Assembly: GCF_000150955.2 (NCBI RefSeq)
Contig: NC_011695.1
Span: forward strand, 62,001-126,000
Length of the DNA stretch: 64,000 nt
Direction of reading: 5' to 3'
Source of the DNA: Phaeodactylum tricornutum CCAP 1055/1
Taxonomy: Eukaryota; Bacillariophyta; Bacillariophyceae; Surirellales; Neidiaceae
Shown here: positions 19,941-61,000 of the stretch, one piece after another
Numbering within the stretch: position 1 is the stretch's first letter
Layout of the letters: each line of letters opens with the position of its first letter
Position numbers and translations under genes: made by a program
Notes under the pieces: model-generated
Database searches by the model: none
Seen by the model: the letters and a program-made list of their open reading frames with translations, nothing else
What the model was told of the DNA's origin: nothing

Positions 19941-20920
19941 ACTTGTAATATCAAAGTACTACGCCAGCGAATGAATGTAGAGAGATGGGTTCGAACACGA
20001 AAAAGGCTGGGTGTCGATATTCCACGAGTGGAGGGTCAGTGAATCTCGCGATTCCGTGAACGAAAAACGGATGGCAGACATACTTCGGAAACGTCAGTGT
20101 CGTTTCCGGATGGATCGGACGAACACAAGAATGGGTTTGTCCCGTATCTAACAGTAAGAGAAGCAGCAGATTGGGCCTGTATGTCGCACGATAAACACGG
20201 GTCAGAAGCGAACCTGTCCCCCATTTCGGCGCTCGAGCTCTGCGTTCCAGTAGAAAAAGCACTCTCGACGCCTCACATTTTCGCGGAACCATCAAGATCG
20301 AACGGTCGGTCGGCTTGACGCGGACAGTCGCTGCTTCAGAGTCCATCGATCGATCGACCACGCGGAACAATCCGTTACGTGCACAACCAACAATCCCAGC
20401 AATTCACGTATTCAAGGCGCTCACAAGCTACTGGTTCCAAGGTATGTTGAAGGAGTCTTTCTGCCCTGTAGAGTCCTGTAAAGTGAGAGACTGAGGATAC
20501 GATGAGATGCTAAGCGAAAGGTACCCAACGATCGTCATGCGAAGACAAATCCATGAGAAGAAAATGCACTGCCCATGACGAATCTATGATTCTCGCGAAC
20601 CCAATCGTGTGCGCATTGAATCGACCACAATTCTCCGAGGCCTGGCAAAATTTCAGCATGGTTTGGATCGTTTTCGTCGTCCTTGTCCTTGCAGTCGACC
20701 TCGTTGGCGTCCCTTCGTGTATCTTGACTTGATTCGAAACATAGCCGATGATTCTATGCATTTTAAAGTTTGAGATCACAATGCAGAGACATCTTCTCTG
20801 TGTATGCGTGACAACATATTTTCCATTGTGAGGCTTGCAATGTTCATTTACATTTGTGTTGTGCACCCTTTCCTGGCACTCTCTTTTTCATCCCATCGTT
20901 CTGTTTTTGACCATCAGAAT
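19941..20920. other. Divergent spacer between RRM and Mpv17 genes
   Basis: About 980 bp without a convincing gene. Open frames on both strands here are short, overlap each other and show no domain. An alternative in-frame ATG for the Mpv17 gene lies at 20804. No element could be named beyond presumed promoters of both flanking genes. Confidence 0.5.
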
Positions 20921-21679
20921 ATGGCACTGACAAATCTGCTACAAAGTGTCCTTGTTTTTTTTCTCTGTGGCCTAACGCTATCAACGGCACGAGGATTCTC
21001 CATCACCCACTATCGTCGAATACAATTGGCGTCTTCATCACCGGCTACCCTGCTCACGCTTCGAGGAGGAGAACAAGACCAAGAACAGACAACTCAACAG
21101 AATCTCTCGACTGCAATGGCGATACCTTTGGCTAATTTTGGCAAGGCATACGCTAGTTCACTGGATGCCCGACCCATCTTGACCAAGAGTGTTACGGCGG
21201 GCTGTATTTTTGCAGTCTCAGACTACCTGGCACAGCGATTGGAATCATCCGGAAGTCGCGAACGAAAAATCAATCCTACCAGGCTGCTCACATCAGCCGC
21301 CGTCGGATTGTTTTACTTCGGACCCGCCGCACACGCGTGGTACAATATGATATTCCAACTGCTTCCAGGGACTTCCCTTGTTTCGACGCTACAGAAAGCT
21401 GTCATGGGACAGTTGTTCTTCGGACCATCATTTACATGCATCTTTTTCGCGACGAGCTTGATGCAATCAGGAAATTTTACAATCGCGAATTGGCTGCGGA
21501 AGATTCGGCAAGATTTGCCCGGAGCATGGCTGGCAGGGGCTAGCTTTTGGCCTCTGGTGGATCTGGTCAGCTTTTCAATGATTTCGAAGGAATGGATTCC
21601 GCTATTCGTAAATATGTGCTCGTTGGTCTGGACAATTTATCTATCCAGTATTGCTAATCGGGGAAGCAAGTCAAGCTAG
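20921..21679 (+). CDS. Mpv17/PMP22-family membrane protein
   Basis: Small integral membrane protein of the Mpv17/PMP22/Sym1 family, which occurs in mitochondrial inner, peroxisomal and plastid membranes; its transport role is not settled. Family features are visible: TKSVTAGCIFAVSDYLAQ near the start of the core, YFGPAAHAWYN, QLFFGPSF, and the closing segment WLAGASFWPLVDLVSF...PLFVNMCSLVWTIYLS. Four membrane segments are expected. The ATG at 20921 gives 252 residues and a clean signal-peptide-like start (LLQSVLVFFLCGLTLSTARGFS), which would suit the secretory or plastid route. The in-frame ATG at 20804 would add 39 residues with a second hydrophobic stretch. An AT microsatellite follows the gene. 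Confidence 0.85.
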   Translation: MALTNLLQSVLVFFLCGLTLSTARGFSITHYRRIQLASSSPATLLTLRGGEQDQEQTTQQNLSTAMAIPLANFGKAYASSLDARPILTKSVTAGCIFAVSDYLAQRLESSGSRERKINPTRLLTSAAVGLFYFGPAAHAWYNMIFQLLPGTSLVSTLQKAVMGQLFFGPSFTCIFFATSLMQSGNFTIANWLRKIRQDLPGAWLAGASFWPLVDLVSFSMISKEWIPLFVNMCSLVWTIYLSSIANRGSKSS

Positions 21680-21765
21680 CTCGCATTTGTGTGTACCGCT
21701 AAAAGGCAAATTCCATTCGGGTGTGGGACGTCTACCTGCAGACCGCTACTTACAATAGCTTGCCC

Positions 21766-21786
21766 TATATATATATATATATATAT
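21766..21786. repeat. (AT)n microsatellite
   Basis: An uninterrupted alternation of A and T of about 21 bp in the short spacer between the converging Mpv17 and APP1 genes. It is likely length-polymorphic. Confidence 0.9.
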
Positions 21787-21884
21787 TTGTAATAAAATCG
21801 TATGACGCTGTATTTTAGTTGCCTTTGTGCGCACCCGATGGATTGTATAGACTGTAGCGGCATCTCCGAGTCTCTGCGGGTCTT

Positions 21885-22928
21885 CTAAAATACAAAAGTC
21901 GCTTGAGCGCGAGCAATATCTCGTTCCAGGTCAGCCCACTTGTCACTTTCTCGCGGGACGTCTGCCAATCGCTGACAGGAGGCCGCAATTACACTATCCA
22001 GTCCATCCATGCTCATAAATCCTAGTTGCACTGCCGCCACGGCGGCTCCAACGTACGTTCGAAAGAAAATGACCGGTCGTCCGTTAATAATTTTGGGTGG
22101 CGGCACCGTTACGGACCCAATTTTGTCGGCCACTACGTGTAGAAAGACGGCTTTGACGACTTCCGGATATTCGCGTAACATGGTTTCACCGGCTTCTTGG
22201 TCCAGTTCGCCAGTATCGCCAACGTACACGTACTGGAATATGATTCCGGTTGGATCCTGTTGCAGGAGTCGCTCAAAATTAGTAAACTTCCGAAACCCCT
22301 TACGGTCCTGCGCGATCCATTCCGCCACGCTACCGTACAACACCGGTCCCACGCCCCAATTGCTAACCCCCGCCGTTTCGCCTGCCTGGCGCAGAGCCAT
22401 TACCAAGGGCGAATCATCCTTCAGCTGCAAAGCAATTTTGAATTCTTCGGCGCGAGCGGTTAGAATGGCAATTTTGGGAGGGGCGACGGCAAGGGCAGGA
22501 TTGGATACTGTTGGTGACGAGGCTACTCCCAAACTCATTTGTAGCATGAATTCGGCCACACCAGGATACATTTCACCACGGGGATATTGAACATCGATTC
22601 CACCCAAGGCGACGCCCGCAACATTGACTCCACCCGAAGATTTGAGTGTATCGTCGACGTCACTAATAACTTGAGTAAAGAGCGGTTTGTCGCCGTTGCT
22701 GGAATCGGAAAGAGCAGCGTAGACGCGCGTACCGGTATCAGTCGATTCCAAGGTGAACAAGGTAGGAAATCTCGTTTTCCGTAACGCCCGAGGGAATGGA
22801 GCTCTCGAGAATAGACCCCTCTGCTTTCGGGAGACCGCGAAACAATCGACCGGAGTCGATAACAAAAGAATTCCCCAAATAATGAACAGCGATGCTGTGA
22901 CTTTGCACTCAAACCTAGAATAAGCCAT
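21885..22928 (-). CDS. APP1-type phosphatase domain protein (HAD-like), plastid/secretory targeted
   Basis: 347 residues; ATG at 22928. Residues 86-100 hold the HAD-like acid motif ISDVDDTLKSSGG (D90, D92, T94), and the later motif YVYVGDTGELDQEAG supplies the metal-binding acids. This DxDxT plus GDTGExD pattern is that of the APP1 (DUF2183) phosphatidate phosphatase catalytic domain of fungi and bacteria. A phosphatase acting on phosphatidate or a related lipid is therefore plausible, though the substrate cannot be read from sequence. The N-terminus (ASLFIIWGILLLSTPVDCFAVSR) is a signal peptide with a Cys-Phe-Ala junction, and the following 30 residues are basic, like a diatom transit peptide. 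It is divergent from the CD2BP2 gene across a 553-bp spacer with a palindromic CRE. Confidence 0.8.
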   Translation of the reverse strand: MAYSRFECKVTASLFIIWGILLLSTPVDCFAVSRKQRGLFSRAPFPRALRKTRFPTLFTLESTDTGTRVYAALSDSSNGDKPLFTQVISDVDDTLKSSGGVNVAGVALGGIDVQYPRGEMYPGVAEFMLQMSLGVASSPTVSNPALAVAPPKIAILTARAEEFKIALQLKDDSPLVMALRQAGETAGVSNWGVGPVLYGSVAEWIAQDRKGFRKFTNFERLLQQDPTGIIFQYVYVGDTGELDQEAGETMLREYPEVVKAVFLHVVADKIGSVTVPPPKIINGRPVIFFRTYVGAAVAAVQLGFMSMDGLDSVIAASCQRLADVPRESDKWADLERDIARAQATFVF

Positions 22929-23481
22929 GACGAAACTCTGGACGCAGTCGCCCCTTCCGGATGTGTGCTACAACAGCTTCCACATGTGCTACATTAGATC
23001 AAGAAGTCGCATCGTCGACTCCACAAAGGCTTGGACGAATGGGAACATGAGCTGCATCCGTTTCGTGATCAAATCCGGGTCTTTTTACAGTTCTTTCACA
23101 GTCAATTCTCTGACGGATGTTCGTGACTGACTGTGACGTCACTATCTCTAGAATGGAGAGGTTCGTTGCCCTGCACAAACGTACGTCGTCCAAAAGCAGG
23201 GTTTGTATTCTGTGGACTGTCATGTCAGTCCACTATGAGCTTGCTAGCTAGAGAGAGAGAGATACCATAGCTATCGATGCGAATCACACACGGTCAACTT
23301 TCAACATCCATCGCCTCGCCAATCGCAACCCACAGCAAGGTAGGTAGCCAGCCAGCCAGCCTTTTGCAACGAGTGACGGTGAAATAAACTGTTCCCAAAG
23401 CCCAGGGACCTGCAGTACGGTAGACCTGGGATTGATCGCCGGAATCCGAGTCTGCGATACGCAACGCCTCGATTCTCGATC
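22929..23481. promoter_or_regulatory. Divergent promoter spacer, APP1/CD2BP2
   Basis: 553 bp between two start codons. It carries TTTCACAGTCA at 23094-23104 and a full palindromic CRE, TGACGTCA, at 23134-23141. It also has short CCAG and GA runs (CCAGCCAGCCAGCC near 23347; GAGAGAGAGA near 23257). No gene is seen. Confidence 0.5.
23134..23141. promoter_or_regulatory. Palindromic CRE-like site TGACGTCA
   Basis: A perfect consensus for bZIP (CREB/ATF-like) factors, about 205 bp from the APP1 start and 340 bp from the CD2BP2 start. The TGACGT half-site is known in this diatom as a CO2/cAMP-responsive element; activity here is inference. Confidence 0.45.
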
Positions 23482-24696
23482 ATGTCGGGCATTGGGAGAG
23501 GTGATGGCAAGAGTCACCCCCGTGGCTTCCCGAGCCGCGGCACGGTTCGCTTCGCGGAAGGAACCCAGGGACCGAGTCACTCAGCATTGACGATGGTCAC
23601 GAGAGGAGGCGATGATGACGATACGAAGCTCGAAGAGACGACGCCCCGACGGAAACGCCCCCGTCACGAGCGGCCCAACGAAGATGAGATCGACGATGTG
23701 GATGAATGGAATGATACAGAGGAGCAAGAGGATGATGCACCCAGCGTACCGACAGAGCACGAACTCTTGCAAGCCAAACAAGAGCGACGGAGAAAACGAG
23801 AGAAGGGTGGTCCGGAATTAGAAGGCGACGAGGTTTCCAAAGAGGGCAGAACTAGTATAGATAACAGCACATCCCTGGCTTCAGAAGGCATCGAAATTGA
23901 ACCGTTCCATATGCATCAAGAGTCTTCGGACGGAACTGGCTATTTTGATGGCGATACGTACGTTTTCCGCAAGGTTCAAGAGGAAGACGAAGAACCGGAT
24001 GCTTGGTTAGAATCGCTCAGCAGTCGTAACGACGAAAGTGAAAGAGAACAGCGAGGACACCAGCCACTCACCAAACCGCAACCTGACTTTGAGAAGAGCA
24101 ACATGGACGATTGGCCCAAGGAATCCTTGTACGCAAAAATTATTCCTCTCGTGAGTGATACAGAAACTGTTATGCAAGCTATCGCGCGCTACGGGCATTT
24201 ACTCAAGCGCAAGCATAAAACTGGTGCGAATATCGGAAGCAACAATGCCAACGACGAATCTCGCAAATTCGCGCAATCCGCATTGAACGACCTGACCGGA
24301 GCTGCGAACGCACTATTGCTTAAAGGAAACGTTGATATCTACCAAAAAACAAGGAAAGAGCTCGTTTGCCAGCTACCTCCTCAACTAGGACGAATGAAGA
24401 CAGCAACCAAACAAAAAGCGCTTTGGGAATACATGGGCAATCAAGATGGAGCAATTCACGGTCCATTTACCACCGAGCAGATGCATGGATGGATTGCCCA
24501 AGGATACTTTGTTGGTCCCACAGCGGTTCAAGTTCGATCAGTGATCGAACAGCCCAAAGAGACAAGCCTAAAAGACGACCTATTGTCCGATCTGATGGAT
24601 GACGACGATGACACCGCGGCCACACCATCTGCGCTCGAGAGCGTTCGCGGAGATTGGATGCAATCGGACCAGGTGGTATTTACTAGCTATACTTAG
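23482..24696 (+). CDS. CD2BP2: CD2BP2/LIN1-like U5 snRNP protein with GYF domain
   Basis: Homologue of human CD2BP2 (U5-52K) and yeast Lin1, an assembly factor of the U5 and tri-snRNP in the nucleus. The 404-residue protein has the usual layout. A disordered, charged N-terminus with basic clusters (RRKRPRHERP) is followed by the family motif GIEIEPFHMHQE with GYFDGDTYVFRK (about 137-160). After acidic and Gln-rich middle parts comes a C-terminal GYF domain from W315 (WEYMGNQDGAIHGPFTTEQM) to GYF at 341-343, which binds proline-rich ligands. The tail is acidic. The ATG at 23482 is the first good start. No intron is seen. Confidence 0.9.
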   Translation: MSGIGRGDGKSHPRGFPSRGTVRFAEGTQGPSHSALTMVTRGGDDDDTKLEETTPRRKRPRHERPNEDEIDDVDEWNDTEEQEDDAPSVPTEHELLQAKQERRRKREKGGPELEGDEVSKEGRTSIDNSTSLASEGIEIEPFHMHQESSDGTGYFDGDTYVFRKVQEEDEEPDAWLESLSSRNDESEREQRGHQPLTKPQPDFEKSNMDDWPKESLYAKIIPLVSDTETVMQAIARYGHLLKRKHKTGANIGSNNANDESRKFAQSALNDLTGAANALLLKGNVDIYQKTRKELVCQLPPQLGRMKTATKQKALWEYMGNQDGAIHGPFTTEQMHGWIAQGYFVGPTAVQVRSVIEQPKETSLKDDLLSDLMDDDDDTAATPSALESVRGDWMQSDQVVFTSYT

Positions 24697-25121
24697 CATT
24701 AAACGTTTTCGACGCTATATCAAGAAGGATGGACGATTCCTTGAGGTTACCTTTCGCCCATGGCGGTATTTATCAAAATTGGACCGCCACTAGGTATGCC
24801 CGTTTTCTAGATATTTTGCGCCTTTTGACTGCTTTGTCGACTTCACATGTTGTTGTCGGGGAATAGCATGTAGCTCGTTCTAGCTAGCGATCACATGTCT
24901 GAAGGAACTGCTAGAAAAATTGCAACAGACGCAACCTCTATCCTTTTAGATTTATCAAATTGGACATGATCTTTACCGAGGTCATCACCCATACATTAAT
25001 TGCCTGTAATTTTTCTAAATAGAAGGCTTATCAATCCCTCCTTGTGCTTTCTTTGATCCAAATTTCCTGAATATTGTGAGAGCGGGAATGAAACCGGAAA
25101 TCGTCGTATGGCTACCTTTGA
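24697..25121. other. Spacer between converging CD2BP2 and HSF genes
   Basis: 425 bp, AT-rich, with no gene or recognisable element. It should hold two 3' UTRs. Confidence 0.5.
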
Positions 25122-31455: not shown

Positions 31456-32094
31456 CGACTAATGAGGCTACGTGAGAGGCAGAAACGGTCCTCACTCTTG
31501 GACACAACAATTCACAGTTACGGTTGACAATAATAAGGCAATTACATGCATTGACTGGGAATAGGGATGGATAGGTAGGCCGTGGGGGTAGCAATACGGC
31601 GGCGAACTGGAACTGCAAATGTACACGAAACGGTGCTCTGCCGCACTCGTCGTCGCACCAACCTGGTAGACTGACAGGCAACCCGCGTGTTTCTAGTCGC
31701 CGTGGAGCATTAGAGCAGTCTTCCGACCGACCGGTAGGAAGGACAGACTCGACGACGACATAAACATCTCGAATCATCTTTCGAAGGGAAACAAGATTCC
31801 GCTTTTGGTATTTGCCTGTGAGTTTCTACCACGCATCACACGAGTCACTATCAAGTACGTGTCGATGATGGTGCGGTACGGCTTTTGTGATTCTGTTATT
31901 GTGATCGTCTTGATGTTGCGTCGTCAACCACCACAACACAACAAACAACGAACGCCGACGGCTCCAACTACAAACTAACATAATACCTACGACACACGTT
32001 GCTTCGTTGTTAGACAGAGCGCTCCATTAGAAGACTGGGTTTTTGGTTTCCTTTTTGCAATTATCTTTTACGTTTTCCATTGCCTCGACGCGCC
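31456..32094. promoter_or_regulatory. Divergent promoter spacer, BAF250-like/lumen protein
   Basis: 639 bp between two start codons. No gene is supported. TTCACAGTTA at 31511-31520 is a weak variant of the shared motif. Confidence 0.45.
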
Positions 32095-32721
32095 ATGCTT
32101 TCCAGACTGCATTCCACAGCGCTACTGCTGACGGCTGTCGCTGGCTGGGTTCTTCTCTCGTCCAGCTGCGTGCAATCCTTTTCCGCCCCATCGTATTCCC
32201 GACGCGAAGCCGTGGCGGCAAGTATCGGTTGGACCACTGCCGTTCTGTCCCAACACAGTCCAGCGTGGGCGGTAGCCGCTGGACCTCCCACGAAAGAAGA
32301 TCTGGAACGGATCAGACTCGGACACGCGCAAATTGTCGATTTACTCGACAATTTTGAAGCCGCTACCACCGTATGTCGGGAAAATGGGGGAGAATGCAAG
32401 CGAGACGCCGAACCCATTCGGAAGGTACTCGGACTGCGATCCACCACGGATCCACTCTTTCAGATTGAAAAGGTTTTTAATAAAGTCAAGAATATGGATT
32501 TGGATCCGGACGCGCTGGAAGCATTTTTCGAAGCCAGTGAGGACTGGAATTCGGCCATGAGTCTCAGCAATTCAATGGCGTTTATTTCGCAATTTGGTGA
32601 GTACAACCCAGGCGGGGGTAAGGACGAGGTACTCAAATACCTCAATGAAAGTAAAAAGCAAGTCGTTGTTGCCGAAAAAGCCTTGAAGACAATCATGGGG
32701 AGCCTCGGCATTGACGGTTAG
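32095..32721 (+). CDS. Thylakoid lumen protein of unknown function
   Basis: 208 residues from the ATG at 32095. A signal peptide (ALLLTAVAGWVLLSSSCVQ) ends at SFSAP, the diatom plastid cleavage motif. A second signal follows with a twin arginine (36-37), a hydrophobic run and AWA (57-59) before VAAGPP, a Tat-type thylakoid-lumen signal. The mature part (about 148 residues) is all helical: TKEDLERIRLGHAQIVDLLDNF, a Cys pair (VCRENGGEC), LRSTTDPLFQIEKVF and a conserved-looking EYNPGGGKDEVLKYL. As I recall, plants and algae share a lumen protein with the STTDPLF and NPGGGKD motifs and no fixed function. A PsbQ/Psb31-like four-helix extrinsic photosystem II protein is an alternative. Location is more certain than function. 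Confidence 0.78.
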   Translation: MLSRLHSTALLLTAVAGWVLLSSSCVQSFSAPSYSRREAVAASIGWTTAVLSQHSPAWAVAAGPPTKEDLERIRLGHAQIVDLLDNFEAATTVCRENGGECKRDAEPIRKVLGLRSTTDPLFQIEKVFNKVKNMDLDPDALEAFFEASEDWNSAMSLSNSMAFISQFGEYNPGGGKDEVLKYLNESKKQVVVAEKALKTIMGSLGIDG

Positions 32722-32951: not shown

Positions 32952-35900
32952 CTATTCAAATTGTGCCGTCGCGTAAAGCGCAAAGGCAACTTGACTGCCA
33001 AAGCCCGCCGCGAACCGCAATGCGTACCGACACGCGTACGGTCCACCCTTGGAAATATTCAAATTTCCCAAGTAGTCGTCCTTCACCTGGTAGTTCGGCA
33101 CCGCCGGGACTGTCTGTCGCATCAACACTTCCACCGCAGCCACGTCTTCAAACGAGACCCCCATAGGGTGTCCGGTAAAGCCTTTTGTATTCAGTATGAG
33201 TAACTTGCTCAATAATTCATCGCCAAAGGCCGTCCGCAACGAGGCGACCTCGTTGCCGGAACACGAACTGGCGTCGGTAGCGTGTGTGCACGTTTCGTGA
33301 GAAAAGTATACACCGTGCGTGGCTATTTCCGCCTTGCAGATTCCATGCACAATTTCAATATCGTTCAAAAATCGAATCAGTTCGGAACCAATGTGTTTGC
33401 GGTCCAACGCCGCTCCGTGGTAGGCGGAGTTGGAGTACTGAGTTGCCAACAAACGGGCCTTGACCTGAAACGGATACGGCGATAGTCTTTGACGTTCAAC
33501 CATACTCAGCTCTGTTTCGAGGACCATGCCGATACCGCCAGCACCCAGCAACATGCCCGATCGACGCTTATCGAACGGTAAAGCGGCGTCTTCCACAGTA
33601 GCAGCCGTAGTGGCGGCACCCAAAGCGCGGAATCCGGATCCTAACCAAGGCAACAGCGTTTCTCCCGAAGCATTGTCCCCGGCCACGACCACTACTCGTT
33701 GAGCACGTCCAGAAATTAGCATGTCTTGCGCCATGGCAATTGCCTGAGTCGTACCGGCACAGGCAGCATTGGTTTGCGTGTTGGGACCTCGGCAACCAGC
33801 CAACTGAGCGAGCTGAGCGTTGCCCAAGACAAGTACGCGGAACAAGAATTTGCGATCAAACTCGTAGGGTTTGTTTTTTGTTTCTTCCGATTCTGTTTCG
33901 CGTGCGCGAGCCACCAGTCGCGCAAAGGCGGCTTCGTCGTCGTCGGAAAGTTCGCGACTCGGCGATGCTCGCACCAATCGGTTCCGCAAGGCCGTAACCA
34001 GTCTAGTGGAATCCGCCGCGCCGACCGTTTTGGATTGCAAAAACCGCATAACCTCACCAACGGCCGCGTCCATGGCGGGAAAGCTGCTGGCGTAGACGAC
34101 TCCCGTCGAATCACGATAATGTTCCGGCAACATCCAGTCTTTCGGATCGTTGGATTTGCCGCAGACGAGTCCCGCATTTTTTAGGGCTTCCATGCCGGCA
34201 GCAACCGCAACTTGAGCGGCCACATCCATGGTTTGCGCCAAGCCCGCTGGTACACCGTAGGCTTCCGTCAAATTAAATGAGCCTAACTGTGCAGCCAATT
34301 GGATCACATCGGATTCCTTGTCTACCGGCACACGCTGAATGGCTCCATTTTTGGACTTTTTCAGCTGTACCACATTCTTGTCCAACATGTGTGCCTTAAC
34401 GCTTCCTGATACAGGAGTGATACACTGATCGCCACGGGTTAGTCGCTCCAGATTGTGTTCGGCAAACGGATGTTCCAATCCGGGCAAACCGGCAGCGGTT
34501 CCGGTAATGACACAGGCAATTCTACGCCGCGCTTCGGTGTGCTGATCGGCATTGCCTTCCCGCGTGCTGGCCAGAACCTGCAGTTTTCCCGTCACGGGCT
34601 GCGAGACGGAATCCCGTTTAGCTTCCCGCAGGACAATCGGTGGAGCCAAGGGGCTGCCGGGAGCGACGGTAAAGGTTGCGTCGAGGGGAACGCGGGAATA
34701 GGTGCGACGGAATAGCGCGTCAATGCCGTTTAAATAGTAGGTTCCGGGGAAAAGACGTCCCACGGTGGGATAGACGGGACTGTACGGGGCACCAGCTCGA
34801 TGCATGCGGGCGCGAGTTTCGAGTGCGTAGTCCAACTCACCCGGGTGTACCATCTCACGTGACGCCAGGCGCTCGGACAGGTTCATGGTGGTGGCCATGG
34901 ATTTTACCGTGAACTGGGACTGTTTCGTGGGAGTACGACTAACAAGGAACAAGAACAAGAATCTAAACGTGAGCCAACGCCCGGGATCTTTTCCGCAGAT
35001 GGATTCACAGGCACGTCACCAAACTTACACGGTCAATCGGTACATGGTTGCGAGGGCTCCGGATCCGTAGGAAAAGAGAACGATGTTTTTACCAGGCGTC
35101 AGTTCGTCCCGTGTTCCCGCCTGGTCGAGGAGTGAGGCCAAACCCAAAAACACGCTGGCGGTGTATGTATTACCAACGAGTTGACTGGCCACGTTGGCGT
35201 CGGCGAGACGCGCTTGCAAACTGGTTGCGGCCCGCTTCTTCAAGACTGCGTCCAATGCTCGATCGTTGTAGGTATCAGCGATCGGCACGTCCAACCACGG
35301 CGCGAGCGGATCGGGCTCGTCCTGATCGGCACTGGTCGATTCGTCCTTCTTTTCTTCCGCCGAGTGGCGTGCGTATTGCGCGCGTGCGTCCATGAGAAAG
35401 AGGCGGGCGTAGGATTTTTGCACGAGTTTGTTGTAGGGTGCGTGAAATACGAGGTAATCGGGTGATTCGGCCGTGAATTGTCTTCCACCGTGCGTGGCGC
35501 CGTCTCGGAGGGTGACTTTTTCGGTAAAGCGAGTGTAGACGTCTTCTAAAGCTTGATAGTAGCAAACCTGCGAGAGTGCGCCATCCACGGTTGGGTATTC
35601 CACGGTATGGTCGGGTTTGTAAAAGTCCCAAACGTTGGCGGCGTGCGTGGCTCGGGTCCGTGGGTCAAAGGATAAGGGCGCATCACGTCCCACGAGTATG
35701 GCAACGGCGCCAGCCCCACTAGTGGGTCGGGCGGGGCCGCGTGCGTAGGCAGCAATATCGGCGGCGACGACGATGGCGTAGCGGCCGTCCCATCCGTCCG
35801 ATTCGACCCACAAAAAGGCGTTGAGCAGGGCGGCGGTGCCTCCGTAGCATGCGTTGATAATGGTGGCGCCTTCAATATCGGTATTGTTGGGAAATAGATC

Positions 35901-36474
35901 CATGAGGAGTGTTTTGGTGGACTTGGACTTGTCGACGAGCGTTTCCGTTCCCACTTCGAGTCGTCCCACCAAGGCGGGGTCGATATTGTATCTAGCGAGC
36001 AGCAAAAAAGAGACGATAGGAAGGGAAAGTGTGGGATTGACGGTCTAGCAATGACGTACGACTTTCATCCAACCGCATGTATTCATGCGATACGGATATG
36101 GATAAGGATTCGAGTCCGGGTACTTACTTTTCCAACAAAGAGTGTACGACCGTCAAGCACAAGGAATTGACGTCTTCGGCATCTCCGGTAACGGCCAGGC
36201 CTTGTTGTCCCAAGCCGATGGTGTACTTGCCCTGGGGGACTCCGACGTGTTCCTCTAGTGCGGCTTGGGCGACGTAGGCGCGCGGAAAGTAGACTTCCAC
36301 GGCGAGAATGCCGACGTGTTTCTGTGTCGAAGGATCGTCCGGTGCGGTCCGCCCGAGCTCCTGCAAGGAGTTGTGGCTGAAGCGGTGACGAGCCGCCAAC
36401 GCGGCACCGGCAACCGTCGCTGCTCCCATAGCGAGGGCACTGGTAGCAGCGCTACTGCTGCCACTACTCGTCAT
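32952..36474 (-). CDS. HMGS: HMG-CoA synthase fused to a C-terminal ketoacyl synthase domain
   Basis: Three exons: 36474-36128, 35991-35029 and 34938-32952, giving 1098 residues. Exons 1-2 encode HMG-CoA synthase, which joins acetyl-CoA to acetoacetyl-CoA in the mevalonate pathway: GKYTIGLGQ, RLEVGTETLVDKSKS, catalytic C164 (NACYGGTAA), and FHAPYNKLVQKS with the active-site His. The second frame seems to stop at 35025, but the stop overlaps a GTAAGT donor (35028). A 90-nt intron ending TTCCTTGTTAG is in phase with exon 3, which opens with the missing HMG-CoA synthase C-terminus (SERLASRE...LFPGTYYLNGIDALFRRTYSR). A complete ketoacyl synthase of bacterial polyketide type follows, with C830 (NAACAGTT), H978 (THGVYFSHET) and H1027 (FTGHPMG). 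The first intron is 136 nt (GTAAGT to GCTAG). Residues 1-45 are Ala/Ser-rich and may be a membrane or targeting segment. I know of no such fusion. Confidence 0.88.
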
Positions 36475-54555: not shown

Positions 54556-55087
54556 TGTGGGATCGACGGGCCCAACCGTACGAAAGGGAGTGTTCAAAGA
54601 CAAAGAGGAGGTGCGAATCGATTGTTTCCGTGGGAAGAATTGTGCGATGACAATCGAGTAATTTGGGAATGTCGCGGAAGTCGAAACGACATTCGCGGCA
54701 GTGTCCGTTTTCGTACGGTACTGGTACGTTTTGATCCCGCATTATCAGATCACGTTTCTGCCGAAGTTTGACTGTGAGTGTGAGTGTAAATTGGCTGGCT
54801 GGCTCACAGTCAAATACAAGATTTCAAGTTGAAACAAACGAATATTGAAAGTTTTCGAATCGTTTCCGTGTTTTGGGACCAAGTTCGAAATTTCCCTCCG
54901 ACTTTTTGTTTCCTGTCGCCCCCACGATGCTTCGACCCCGTGTGTTTCCAATTCTTTCCTTTCACTGTCTCTTTGTTGACCAAACGAAAAGAACAACCTG
55001 CTTTACGTTCAAGTCATTGAAGAGCAGCAACATTGACGATCCACCAGACCAACACAGCGGGAATACCGTACCGCTTGAGCATGCTCC
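54556..55087. promoter_or_regulatory. Divergent promoter spacer, channel/REV3
   Basis: 532 bp between two start codons. It holds a perfect 12-bp inverted repeat: TTTGACTGTGAG at 54767-54778 and CTCACAGTCAAA at 54803-54814. Each arm carries the shared upstream motif. No gene is seen. Confidence 0.5.
54767..54814. promoter_or_regulatory. Inverted pair of TTTGACTGTGAG elements
   Basis: Two 12-bp arms in perfect inverted orientation, 24 bp apart. They lie 212 bp from the channel start and 274 bp from the REV3 start, so they could serve both genes. Arms contain the TGACTGTGA motif seen in other spacers of this window. Confidence 0.5.
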
Positions 55088-58000
55088 ATGAGTCGTCCTC
55101 TCGAGGTTCCTCCTCCATACTCCTCATCGTCCTCCTCCCCACCCGGACCGAACGTTACGCGGGGTAACCAGAACTTGCCGCCACCGGGTAGCACCTCTTC
55201 GTCGTTGCCGGATGACAACAATGGATTGGACGCGTCAACAACCAAACCGACGCCGATTCACGTTTGTTGTTCCGTCTTGAATACCGTCATTGATCACGTC
55301 ATGGTCTCACCCAGTGCACTGGAACCGGAAGAGCTTCGAGCACAGTACGTCGACGATGCGGTGTTGTCGAGATCCACCGAGTTGGGAGCCGCATCACAGA
55401 CACGCACACCCCTGCAAGTTCCCGTTCTCCGTGTCTTTGGTCCCATCTTGCGTCGGGACAACGACGACAGCAATCCAGATGGAAATGGATCGTTGGATCC
55501 GCCAACCCAGTCGGCCTGTTTGTACATTCACGGTGCCTTTCCCTACTTGTTGTGTCGGCCAGTCGTGGCAGGCGCCGACGGATCCTGGCACCGATCGTCA
55601 CACAATCACCACGGCCTGACGCCATCCGGACACCTCGATTGGGACGATGCCGCGGCGGTGGAACGCATATTGCCCGTTTTGCACGAACATCTCGAAGCCT
55701 CGCTGCAAGCGTCCCTCCAACAATCCTCCCTCGGTCTCGACAAGCACAGCAACAGTAACCGTGAAGCTACCGGGAATTCACGACAACCACCCAAGCCACC
55801 GGCAACCAAAATTATTCGCCGACTGTCTCTCGTGGTCGGTCGTGGATTTTACACCTACTGCGCGGGTCCGCCCGCTCCCTTTGTTCGGGTCGAATACTAC
55901 AATCCCAAATCACGATGGAAAGTTAAAATGCTCCTGGAGCGTGGCTTGGAGCTCCCCAGTTTGTACCATCCCGATCCAATCCAGTACGAACCGGCGGCTC
56001 GGGAAGATCACGTCGAGCCAGACATTGATGCGGCCAATGCGGAAACCTTGTCCTTTCACTGCTACGAAGCACACATTCCGTACACGATGCAGTTCTTCAA
56101 GGACTACAATCTGGCCGGCATGCGGTACATTCATATTGGTAAGACCAAATTCCGACAACCCTTGCCACGAACCCGACGCGCCCGATTTTGGCACAAGCAT
56201 GACGTTCTGGTGGAACCACACGTGCGGGACGAAACCATGTTTCTCGAGTCCAACACCCCAGCCGTCTATCGATGGAATGACGACACCCAAACCAATGTGA
56301 GCCTATTACACGTATCCCCGACCGCACAAAACGATTTCGGCGTGGACGATTCGGTGGCGCATTCGGGTTTGGGAGACACGTTTGCGTTGGCGCAACTATC
56401 ACAGACAGATATTCCGAGCAGTCCATGGTCGGACCGCCCCGACAATGCCAGAGCGGAAGAGGCTGTGTCCCACGCTGAAAGTACACCCCAACACTCCAAT
56501 CCAGACGCGCGAGAATGGATTGTCTCGCCAGGAACGTACGAATGGGAGAAACGCCTCGAAGCGCAAGCGCCACCCACGAAAGAAACCACCTGCGATTTGG
56601 AACTCGATATTCACGTCGACGATATACTAAACGTCCACGAAGTAATTCGAGAAGTGCCAACCATTACCAACAATTCGCGACAACCAGTGCATTGGAGGGC
56701 GGTACCCAGTCTACGAGAGATTTGGGCCGAAGAACGTATCCGCATGGGCAAACTACTACCTCCACAGGATGACTTTCTGAGTCCAGACCGTGGAGCTAGT
56801 ACCACCACACCACCCTTCACGTTAAATGTCCAGCTTCCAGATTCGGCTTTGCCGGGCACCAGACTTGCAGTCACAGGAATGAAACGTCTACGAGACTTGA
56901 CGCTCGGCTTGGACGATAACTTTCGTCGGGTCATGAAAGATATAATTGCCCGCCACGACGTGGCTGTGCAGCGAATTGACGAAGGTCTCGCACGCCGACG
57001 ATTAAATTCCGATAGATTGGCAGAGGCTCAGGAATGGGGGCTTTTGAACCCCAACCGTTCGTCGGGTCCGAAAGGTTTGACCCCCTCCGATCAGGAAGCG
57101 ACAGACACTTTGGCAATGCTTGGTTCTTTATTCAAAGAACCATCACCACCACACGCAAACAACAATTTCTCGAGTGATCAAGGACCGGGATCATCTTCGA
57201 AGTATAGTTGGTCATCCAGTCCGCAGAATTTTTCTTCGAGCCAAGACATCACAGTCAATGGCAAAGCGCATGGTATCGAAGAGGATCGACATTCTTCGCA
57301 GAGCGAGCGCTTTCAAAGCTTGTCTCAAACGTATTACGATGGTCAAGCTGAAGCTGCTGCGGAAAGTGACTTTGAATTGAGCCAAAGGATGGAGCGAGGA
57401 GATGGGATCTTCGAGGGGCCGTTCGAATATGTAGAAGACTTTATTGATCCGGAAACGCTGGCGCCTTTTGAGTCAATCGACGAGGATGGGGATGATTTGT
57501 TCGATCTAGACAGCGATAGCGACGATGGCGCAATGGATGAGTCTCGAATAGAGGAAGAGCTAACGCAACTTGCAACTCAAACGTACAACAAATCAATGGA
57601 AGATTACACCGACGATTCTAGATCAAAACCGTTCGATATGAAGGGTAGCCAAGATGGTTATTGTGCCTCATCGGGCCGTGACCCAGTCAGCACAGAAAAG
57701 TCCATGGCAGAAGCCGACTTATCGGACCATGATCCAGCCAGCAGAGAAAAATTCATGGCGGTTGACATGAAAGCCGACAACCCAACGCCTATGTCTGGGA
57801 AGCAAAATTTGCAAGGGTGTGGTAATGAGAGCGCTAGAGAAATTTCCGCTTTTACAACAAGTCTTCTGAGCTCATCTGACTGCCATGCTCCTTCTAAGTG
57901 CTACGTTGAAATTTTGCGAAATCCTCCTACACGAAAGGCATCGAAGAACAGCGGTACATCCGTCGGGTACCATCCGTTAGCAACCGTTGGTGATGTCCCG

Positions 58001-61000
58001 CCGTGGTTGTTTTTTGCAGAGTATCAAAAGCTTCGTGGTACTACCTCCAGCGCTGCACCATTTTCTTCGTTTCCTTCCATTCCCGATGGTGGATTAAGTG
58101 TCCTTCCGACGAAATCCCCTCCTACTCGGCGAGCTGTACAAGGGTGGATGCTGCGAGAACGCAAACGAAAGCAGCCTTTGGATTCGGGATGCGACCAGGA
58201 GCACGTCGCAGAGAAAAAGCGAATTGCAGGCGCTTCTGCGAGCCTTTCTGTTGTCGCTGAGATGAATGTTGCCATCGACAGAATTCCTCGTCAGCTTGAA
58301 TTGCCACAGACAGCAGAAATTCATTGCAAGGAATATGCTGTCAGGGACAAAGATCAAGCTGGAGCTTTGACCGTTGAAGAAGTAGACTGGTCCAAAAGCC
58401 AAAATCTTTCACAGTATCAAGCTTCGCAAACCGGAGACGAAATTGAGACTGACCATTCAACAAGTAACGGAGGGTTTCAAGTCGTTTCGACTGCTGTTCA
58501 AGAGAAGGTCAGAAGTAGCGGTGACACTGCGAAAAATCACTTACCCACAGACTATGAGTCATTGAGTCAAAGCATGCCAATCAGCGAATCAGGCGGATCG
58601 TTTTTTGTTGCTCAGCCACTGGATGGTATTGGTAATCAAGGGGGTCGAATATGGGTGGAAGGTGGTGGCGTTTTGAAAGCAAACACAAGGTCCTCAGCCC
58701 GACAGTCAACAGCCGACAAAAGCCCGTGCTCTACTAAGGCACATTCCGAGACTATCGGCGGGCCTCACTTACCCTCACCACTTTCAGTCATGATCATCGA
58801 CGTTCATGTGCAGTGTCGGTCGGGTCGCGCTGGAACATCTGATTCGAAAACGATTGCTTTGACCCCCGATTCTGATCGAGACAAAGTCGCTTCAGTGATT
58901 TACTTGTATGGAAAGGATCCTGGCGGAGGAGAGTCTCTGGAGATTCTTGAAAGAGGATGTATCTTTATTCCTGTAGAGAAGGAACTATCCAACACGTCCT
59001 TAGACTTCAACGAGAAAAAACTCCTGAAACGCTTCGCAGACGATCTTCGTCTGGCGATGCCGACGAAAGTCTTAGGATACGACGCGCCCTTTAGTGTAGA
59101 CTGTGTGAGCGACGAGAGGCAGCTTTTACTCAGGCTTTCTTCGGTAGTATATTCCAAGGATCCCGACTTGCTGCTTAGTTGGGACACTCAAGGTACAGGG
59201 CTCGGGTACTTGATAGAAAGAGGCTCCAAAGTCTCGGGTACAACAAATTCAGACTTATCTCGAGAGTCGGATAAGTCGGAACAGGGTATTGACATGGCCC
59301 GACTTTTAGGGAGGACTAGGAAGGTCGACAAAAAGGATAAAGCAAAGGACGGCCGCTTCGCTGGCATGTCGACGGATGATTTTTTAGGCGAAATTGCGAC
59401 AGATGATGCTCCACGCGCTGCCTCGAAGGCTGCACAGGCGCAACGAAGCGAGTGGGCAGGAAGTGGATTGGGCAGGTATGTCTCGCGATTTTCTGTCAAA
59501 CGACAAACGTTGTTTACATGCTCTCACATGCCCGGCCGGATAGTGATTGGGATGACAGAGTTGGTGCTGGAGCTGCTGCGGCGTCAATTGTGAGTGTTTA
59601 CTACTGTTGCTTAAAGAAAATTGTTTTGCTACCTTTGACACTCACTATAAATTTCAAGCTTAGGTGGGGCGTCTTGTGTTCGCCGGTTGGAAGATCATCG
59701 CTGAGGAGGTAAAACATCCGAATGCATCATACTTACCAGCAGTTGTCGCCACTGTCCTGAATCGTCGTATCCCCAACTACGACAATCTGAAATTGACTGA
59801 GTGGTACGGACACAACAGTGGACGAGAACGATGGAGAGTAATTCATCATAAGTTGACGCAGGCAGCGGCATGCCTACTTCTATTCGATGCACTTGACATT
59901 ATTGGCAGGGCAGGCGAAGCCGCTCGTTTGAGTGGAGTTGAGTTCTCTCAGAGTTTCCCCGGAATTCGTGGCTCACAGTACAAAGTCGAAGGGGTTCTTC
60001 TTCGCGCTCTCCAAAGTCTCAACTCGGACGAGCGAGGTTCCAAGAAAGGCCGACAAGATGGACGACTTCACACCTCGAGATCAACGATGTTTAGCGATGA
60101 GAGCAAATCACAGACTCAAAGCCCGTGGAAGATGCGTAGAGCAGCTGCCGGTGGAGAGGACGATGGCCATCCTCTTCATTCGATTTCCGATCGCAATTAT
60201 TTCTTTTTTTCTCCTTCGCTTCAAGACACGAATAAGCAAGAGGCTTTGGAAGTGCAGGCAATGACGCTGGAGCCACAATCAGGGCACAGACAAGACCCCG
60301 TGATTGTTTGTGATTTTACAGCTCTGTATCCGTCTCTAGTGATTGCTTACAATCTGTGCTATTCAACCTGCGCTGGGCGATTGGAATACCACACAACCCG
60401 GAGCGAAATGCGGCGCCAGGGAAGGACGACCGGGAGGCTTGGACCGTTCACGTACCCGGAGGGACGAACAGCAACAGTTCTAAAGCATCACATGAAAACG
60501 ATTTCTGAAGAATCCAACGCAAAAGATAGGATATATGCGGCTCCAACAGGAACCATTTTCGTCTCGGAATCGGTCGTTAAGGGTGTTCTTCCGCAGGTTT
60601 TGGATGAGATTCTTAGCACCAGGGCTATGTTGAAGAAGGCTGCAAAGCAGTACAGGGAAAAGGTGCATGATTTATCTCCGTCGATTTTGCGTCAACTGGA
60701 AGCTCGTCAATTGGCGTTGAAGTACGTCGCGAACGTTACTTATGGTATGTGTGTGCCCAAATTTCACCATTCCTCTTTGAAGCCCTTTTCCCTCTAAAAA
60801 CGTTCGTTGTCTACCATTTCAGGCTACACTTCGGCTACATTCTCCGGTCGATGTGCAATGCCATTGTTGGCTGATACGATTGTTGAATGCGGTCGACGGA
60901 CCCTCCACAATGCGATAGACTTAGCCAATAGTTGGGGCCGTGATAGCAATGGGAAGTGGAGAGAATGCGAAGTGATTTACGGGGACACTGATTCGGTCTT

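Follow-up and report, generated by a model that had tools for sequence, protein, structure and literature searches.

HMG-CoA synthase is a textbook step, which a major group of eukaryotes would feed or control differently, given a fused and apparently active condensing enzyme reported in diatoms as well as an oomycete. A locus in a 64,000-nucleotide stretch of Phaeodactylum tricornutum DNA (the window) raises this question because an HMG-CoA synthase appears to run on into a ketoacyl synthase there. Are the two domains parts of one enzyme, where does the ketosynthase come from, and what might it do for the synthase to which it is attached?

A Single Gene Is Predicted to Encode Both Domains

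Joined in silico through GTAAGT donors and TAG acceptors, three exons on the minus strand yield one 1098-aa frame (Table 1). A sequence-only reading of this DNA had placed the end of the HMG-CoA synthase frame at 35025, overlapping the GTAAGT donor of a 90-base intron, and both points hold. If intron 2 is retained, the frame ends after residue 437 at an in-frame TAA (35027-35025). Intron 1 was absent from that reading, and its view that the next exon begins with the missing C terminus was right about the exon but not about its opening: exon 3 starts with RTPTKQSQF, and LFPGTYYL follows about 60 residues further in.

Table 1. Predicted parts of the fusion gene, in window coordinates
Feature	Position	Strand	Details
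Exon 1	36128..36474	-	ATG, 51-aa N-terminal extension, HMG-CoA synthase start
Intron 1	35992..36127	-	136 nt, GTAAGT...CTAG
Exon 2	35029..35991	-	HMG-CoA synthase core with Glu132, Cys164, His299
Intron 2	34939..35028	-	90 nt, GTAAGT...TTAG
Exon 3	32952..34938	-	HMG-CoA synthase C terminus (to about residue 521), Met-free linker, entire ketoacyl synthase
Fusion-gene stop codon	32954-32952	-	End of exon 3
Ketoacyl synthase domain	32955..34529	-	Residues 574-1098; Cys830, His984, Glu1000, Lys1022, His1027, Phe1083

Exon 3 is common to the last ~80 residues of the HMG-CoA synthase and the whole ketosynthase. Residues 482 and 621 bracket a stretch of the 1098-aa frame without Met, so that a full ketosynthase with a start of its own would need to initiate within the HMG-CoA synthase. 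Codon usage, scored against nine Pfam-supported ORFs within the window, fits this frame in every part: both synthase exons and, within exon 3, the synthase C terminus, linker, and ketosynthase reach 0.14 to 0.31 bits per codon. The same parts score below 0 in both other forward frames, and two of 15 antisense readings are barely positive (0.03). Judged by its sequence, the gene is well supported as a single fusion enzyme with both domains in one frame, in agreement with the earlier argument that two separate genes are unlikely.

The Fusion Has Been Listed Before

The sequence-only reading knew of no published example of this fusion. That claim falls, because the pair is listed in Table 2 of Morris et al. 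2009 (PMC2705460) as "Beta-ketoacyl synthase & hydroxymethylglutaryl-CoA synthase," the species being the diatoms Thalassiosira pseudonana (Tp260768) and P. tricornutum (16649) and the oomycete Phytophthora sojae (Ps128154). That table holds 21 cases, described as keeping domain order; its row names the ketosynthase first and carries neither function nor origin. With both domains in one protein, the window gene matches this stramenopile fusion type by domain content rather than by sequence comparison with 16649, which may be the present gene. Given its reported presence in an oomycete as well as two diatoms, the fusion is probably ancient among stramenopiles.

An active fusion would also bear on sterol and terpenoid engineering in diatoms, where Phatr3_J16649 passes as the plain HMG-CoA synthase of P. 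tricornutum (PMC6330534); the same source gives HMGR the identical number, apparently a slip. In the open-licence literature searched, we found neither a functional study of the fusion nor a stated origin for its ketosynthase. The existence of the fusion being already published, what is new here is the kinship of the ketosynthase and a testable mechanism.

The N-Terminal Half Is Typed as a Mevalonate HMG-CoA Synthase

Pfam matches HMG_CoA_synt_N at residues 52-221 (7.6e-72) and HMG_CoA_synt_C at residues 223-519 (3.7e-69), the latter match crossing intron 2. The NCBIfam model TIGR01833 (HMG-CoA-S_euk) is matched over positions 2-456 of 457 with 524 bits against a cut-off of 286.2, which places residues 51-519 as a full eukaryotic-type HMG-CoA synthase. 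The best solved-structure matches to this half are 7cqt, 2f82, and 2p8u, at 381-402 bits; the next are shorter enzymes with at most 163 bits. Glu132, Cys164, and His299, which we take to be the catalytic residues from the human and plant HMG-CoA synthases, are present in conserved motifs. By these sequence criteria, the synthase half is of the mevalonate type and intact. Its 51-residue N-terminal extension carries a hydrophobic stretch at about residues 8-29 and is possibly a membrane or organelle signal.

The Ketosynthase Has Kin in Prokaryotic Megasynthases

Family models describe the C-terminal half less closely. Pfam ketoacyl-synt matches residues 811-911 (3.7e-12), and the best NCBIfam ketosynthase model, fabF (TIGR03150), reaches 97 bits against a cut-off of 493.75, which leaves the domain outside that family. 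It also falls outside the KAS III class, the fabH model (TIGR00747) giving 24.5 bits against 292.1 with 37 residues matched.

A tblastn search with a 516-aa ketosynthase query found a locus of Nonomuraea gerenzanensis with 40.4% identity over 99% of the query (E 3e-97), inside a 2555-aa megasynthase; the other tblastn records listed (19 of 121) show 26-30% identity over 50-72% of the query. Scanning genomes with the single window protein confirmed no prokaryotic relative. With the two aligned sequences as query, the scan returned 156 relatives; the best 80, at 39-44% identity, were retained and span, among others, Chloroflexota, Acidobacteriota, Actinomycetota, Myxococcota, Calditrichota, Thermoplasmata, and Heimdallarchaeota. 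Across the domain, identity to the 81 loci is 39-46%, above that of generic ketosynthases. The earlier label "bacterial-type" is supported in the wider sense of prokaryote-related, the related megasynthase domains being both bacterial and from Asgard archaea. On viral contigs, no relative was confirmed; phage records gave six weak matches, of which the five listed cover 53-63% of the query.

Of the 80 loci, 66 have 995 or more residues ahead of the domain within one ORF. Of the remaining 14, 12 are cut by a contig end, one (L049) has 154 preceding residues, and one (L055) is stand-alone. All six loci scanned with Pfam, from the 81, have KS, AT, ACP, KR, and DH matches flanking the domain (L001, L002, L003, L005, L010, and L028), with weak ACP and DH matches in some. 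The kin of the window domain are the second ketosynthases of bacterial and Asgard archaeal megasynthases with the order KS-AT-KS-ACP-KR-DH. The window ketosynthase itself does not occupy such an AT-to-ACP position within one megasynthase, and Pfam finds no AT, ACP, KR, or DH in the 1098-aa protein.

Several features of these loci are worth recording. Three megasynthases end in a phosphopantetheinyl transferase (L002, L003, and L010), and that of L010 starts with a nitronate-monooxygenase-like (enoyl-reductase-like) domain. The domain lies in megasynthase ORFs of 3265 to 3604 aa in the Asgard archaeal loci L002, L003, L010, and L020. In L055, a Heimdallarchaeota metagenome contig, the ketosynthase is a 548-aa ORF (734-2380) outside any megasynthase, whose neighbours resemble, by eye, nucleotide synthesis genes. 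Adjoining the Nonomuraea megasynthase (L001) is a 1821-aa ORF (19649-25114) that by eye resembles a fused acyl-CoA carboxylase, which fits the expected supply of malonyl-CoA.

We also searched the 81 loci for an HMG-CoA synthase by tblastn, in a 1.26-Mb set with flanks of up to 10 kb (15 kb for L001), many of them shortened by contig ends. Five matches up to E 10 were returned, the best with E 2.8, and there is thus no sign of an older functional link between the two enzymes.

A tree of the ketosynthase, which the sequence-only reading had proposed, singles out no donor lineage. Without an outgroup, a quick tree groups the window sequence with six Asgard and one Thermoplasmata sequences (SH-aLRT 95); when rooted on first ketosynthases, the tree puts it in a basal polytomy with Myxococcota and Asgard. 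Constrained placements with the six Asgard sequences (p-AU 0.466), with four Myxococcota (0.482), or with L055 alone (0.483) are all unrejected, and the end branch of the window ketosynthase is long (2.3-2.8). We infer that a prokaryotic lipid megasynthase was the source of the ketosynthase, and that the transfer ran in this direction, with no particular donor claimed.

The Ketosynthase Keeps Its Catalytic Residues but Differs from Its Relatives Elsewhere

The sequence-only reading had described a full ketoacyl synthase with Cys-His-His, and this description stands (Table 1). The Cys, both His, the Lys, the Glu, the HxTxT motif, and the Phe of GFG are kept in the window ketosynthase and identical in 81 of the 81 relatives examined, and because of this retention the domain looks catalytic. 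An AlphaFold2 model, built from an alignment of the window sequence with 46 of the 80 loci, has a pLDDT of 84.8 and a pTM of 0.86. Its best structural matches are FabF chains, the listed ones giving TM-scores of at most 0.88 by target length and 0.60-0.68 by query length. With its FabF fold and Cys-His-His-Lys set, the C-terminal half is a divergent but full FabF-fold ketoacyl synthase, resembling the elongating type.

Elsewhere, the domain has changed. It differs from 46 relatives at 38 of the 163 columns that are at least 93% conserved among them, two of the 38 being gaps. The loop directly after the catalytic His (residues 989-997) is unlike that of the relatives, and residues 986-995 have a pLDDT under 50 in the model. 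A Trp found in 81 of 81 relatives is Met843 in the window, an Arg (80 of 81) is Ala947, and a Lys (81 of 81) is Glu1040. The chemistry seems to have been kept, and contacts to a partner or substrate may have been altered.

Comparison with Known Systems

FabF (KAS II) shares fold and catalytic residues with the window ketosynthase but is only 18-22% identical to it in the listed structural matches, the window domain being more than 100 residues longer. FabF-type enzymes normally use ACP-bound rather than CoA-bound substrates. The acetoacetyl-CoA synthase NphT7, a stand-alone enzyme of the FabH class (KAS III), catalyzes the reaction that we propose below but belongs to a different ketosynthase class; kinship with NphT7/FabH is ruled out by the fabH score given above, and the analogy is weakened by the finding that the kin are second ketosynthases of lipid megasynthases. 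Beta-branching cassettes likewise pair a relative of HMG-CoA synthase with a ketosynthase, as separate proteins with a Cys-less ketosynthase and ACP-bound substrates; Cys830 and the mevalonate-type synthase rule out such a cassette here. Chain length factors, as usually defined, lack the catalytic Cys, and that role is excluded by the presence of this Cys in the window and in all 81 relatives.

A published layout that these megasynthases fit is that of Type R secondary lipid synthases (KS-MAT-CLF-ACP(3-6)-KR), reported from Roseiflexus, Koribacter, Solibacter, and Elusimicrobium (Shulse and Allen 2011, PMC3098273), in which the second-ketosynthase position is termed chain length factor. In Koribacter, the stretch separating the two genes codes for part of an acetyl-CoA carboxylase (PMC3098273). 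The window ketosynthase is nearest to the second KS of megasynthases with a like layout (Roseiflexus, Acidobacteria, and others), whereas the window protein is without AT, ACP, KR, and DH and has HMG-CoA synthase as its N-terminal partner. Since the layout and taxa of our loci agree with those published for Type R (PMC3098273), the window ketosynthase and the Type R "CLF" position most likely have a common ancestor.

Possible Function of the Fusion

Our best guess, to which we give a probability of about one in three, is that the ketosynthase performs malonyl-driven formation of acetoacetyl-CoA for the attached HMG-CoA synthase. A ketosynthase of a prokaryotic lipid megasynthase, no longer accompanied by AT, ACP, and KR, would now act as a condensing enzyme beside HMG-CoA synthase. 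It would join acetyl and malonyl units into acetoacetyl-CoA by decarboxylative condensation, the least certain step, and the attached synthase would join acetoacetyl-CoA to acetyl-CoA. Entry into the mevalonate pathway would then be drawn by malonyl-CoA decarboxylation and not by the unfavourable thiolase reaction alone. This reading is supported by the fit between the two halves, since acetoacetyl-CoA, the proposed product of one, is the established substrate of the other. Counting against it are the FabF class of the domain, with no ACP or AT in the protein, the changes in loop 989-997 and at Met843, Ala947, and Glu1040, and the lack of any HMG-CoA synthase match better than E 2.8 in the 81 prokaryotic loci, many of them truncated. 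An extra supply of acetoacetyl-CoA is probably unnecessary for the pathway to run, since acetyl-CoA acetyltransferase is reported in two other stramenopiles, P. infestans (PMC5289490) and Schizochytrium (PMC10174431). We consider it rather unlikely that stramenopiles in general, from oomycetes to diatoms, use a captured ketosynthase that makes acetoacetyl-CoA from malonyl-CoA and passes it to the fused synthase, tying isoprenoids to the malonyl-CoA pool of fatty-acid synthesis. The proposed origin makes the function testable, through dependence on ACP or CoA, chain length, and Cys830.

Two other explanations are nearly as likely as acetoacetyl-CoA formation. The ketosynthase could be an independent lipid condensing enzyme, elongating acyl-ACP or acyl-CoA and merely tethered for location or dosage, which we regard as a tentative possibility. 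Its kinship with second ketosynthases of lipid megasynthases, its FabF fold with retained catalytic residues, and the stand-alone archaeal ORF, which indicates that the domain can exist outside a megasynthase, all favour such a role, but an ACP partner is absent from the protein, and the reported occurrence of the fusion in an oomycete and diatoms points to some importance of its connection with HMG-CoA synthase.

Somewhat more doubtful is a domain that binds or decarboxylates malonyl-CoA without condensing, thereby feeding acetyl groups, or signalling malonyl-CoA levels, to HMG-CoA synthase. An analogy comes from beta-branching polyketide clusters, in which decarboxylating ketosynthases supply homologues of HMG-CoA synthase. 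The rebuilt loop at the catalytic His and the loss of residues fixed in the relatives would suit this role, as would the annotation of the Type R position as chain length factor (PMC3098273); however, Cys830 is kept here and in all 81 relatives, whereas beta-branching ketosynthases replace it, and the attached synthase is of the mevalonate type. Finally, it is very improbable that the locus holds separate genes or gives alternative transcripts, with the HMG-CoA synthase terminating in intron 2 and the ketosynthase starting within exon 3: retention of intron 2 does bring an immediate stop, but the truncated synthase would be without its last ~80 residues, which sit in the ketosynthase exon, the Met-free stretch offers no start between the domains, and this domain pair is on record from three species (PMC2705460).

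Surroundings of the Gene

Elsewhere in the window, a 1828-aa open frame on the minus strand (10318-15804) has a Copia-type reverse transcriptase domain (RVT_2) and is probably an LTR retrotransposon, a 1504-aa open frame on the plus strand (55079-59593) has no Pfam match at 1e-5, and an HSF-type gene is also present. Short introns, a Copia-like element, and the HSF-type gene give the window a diatom-like look. Convergent with the fusion gene is a 235-aa open frame on the plus strand (32014-32721), likewise without a Pfam match at 1e-5, whose N terminus resembles by eye the signal and twin-arginine stretch typical of thylakoid lumen proteins.
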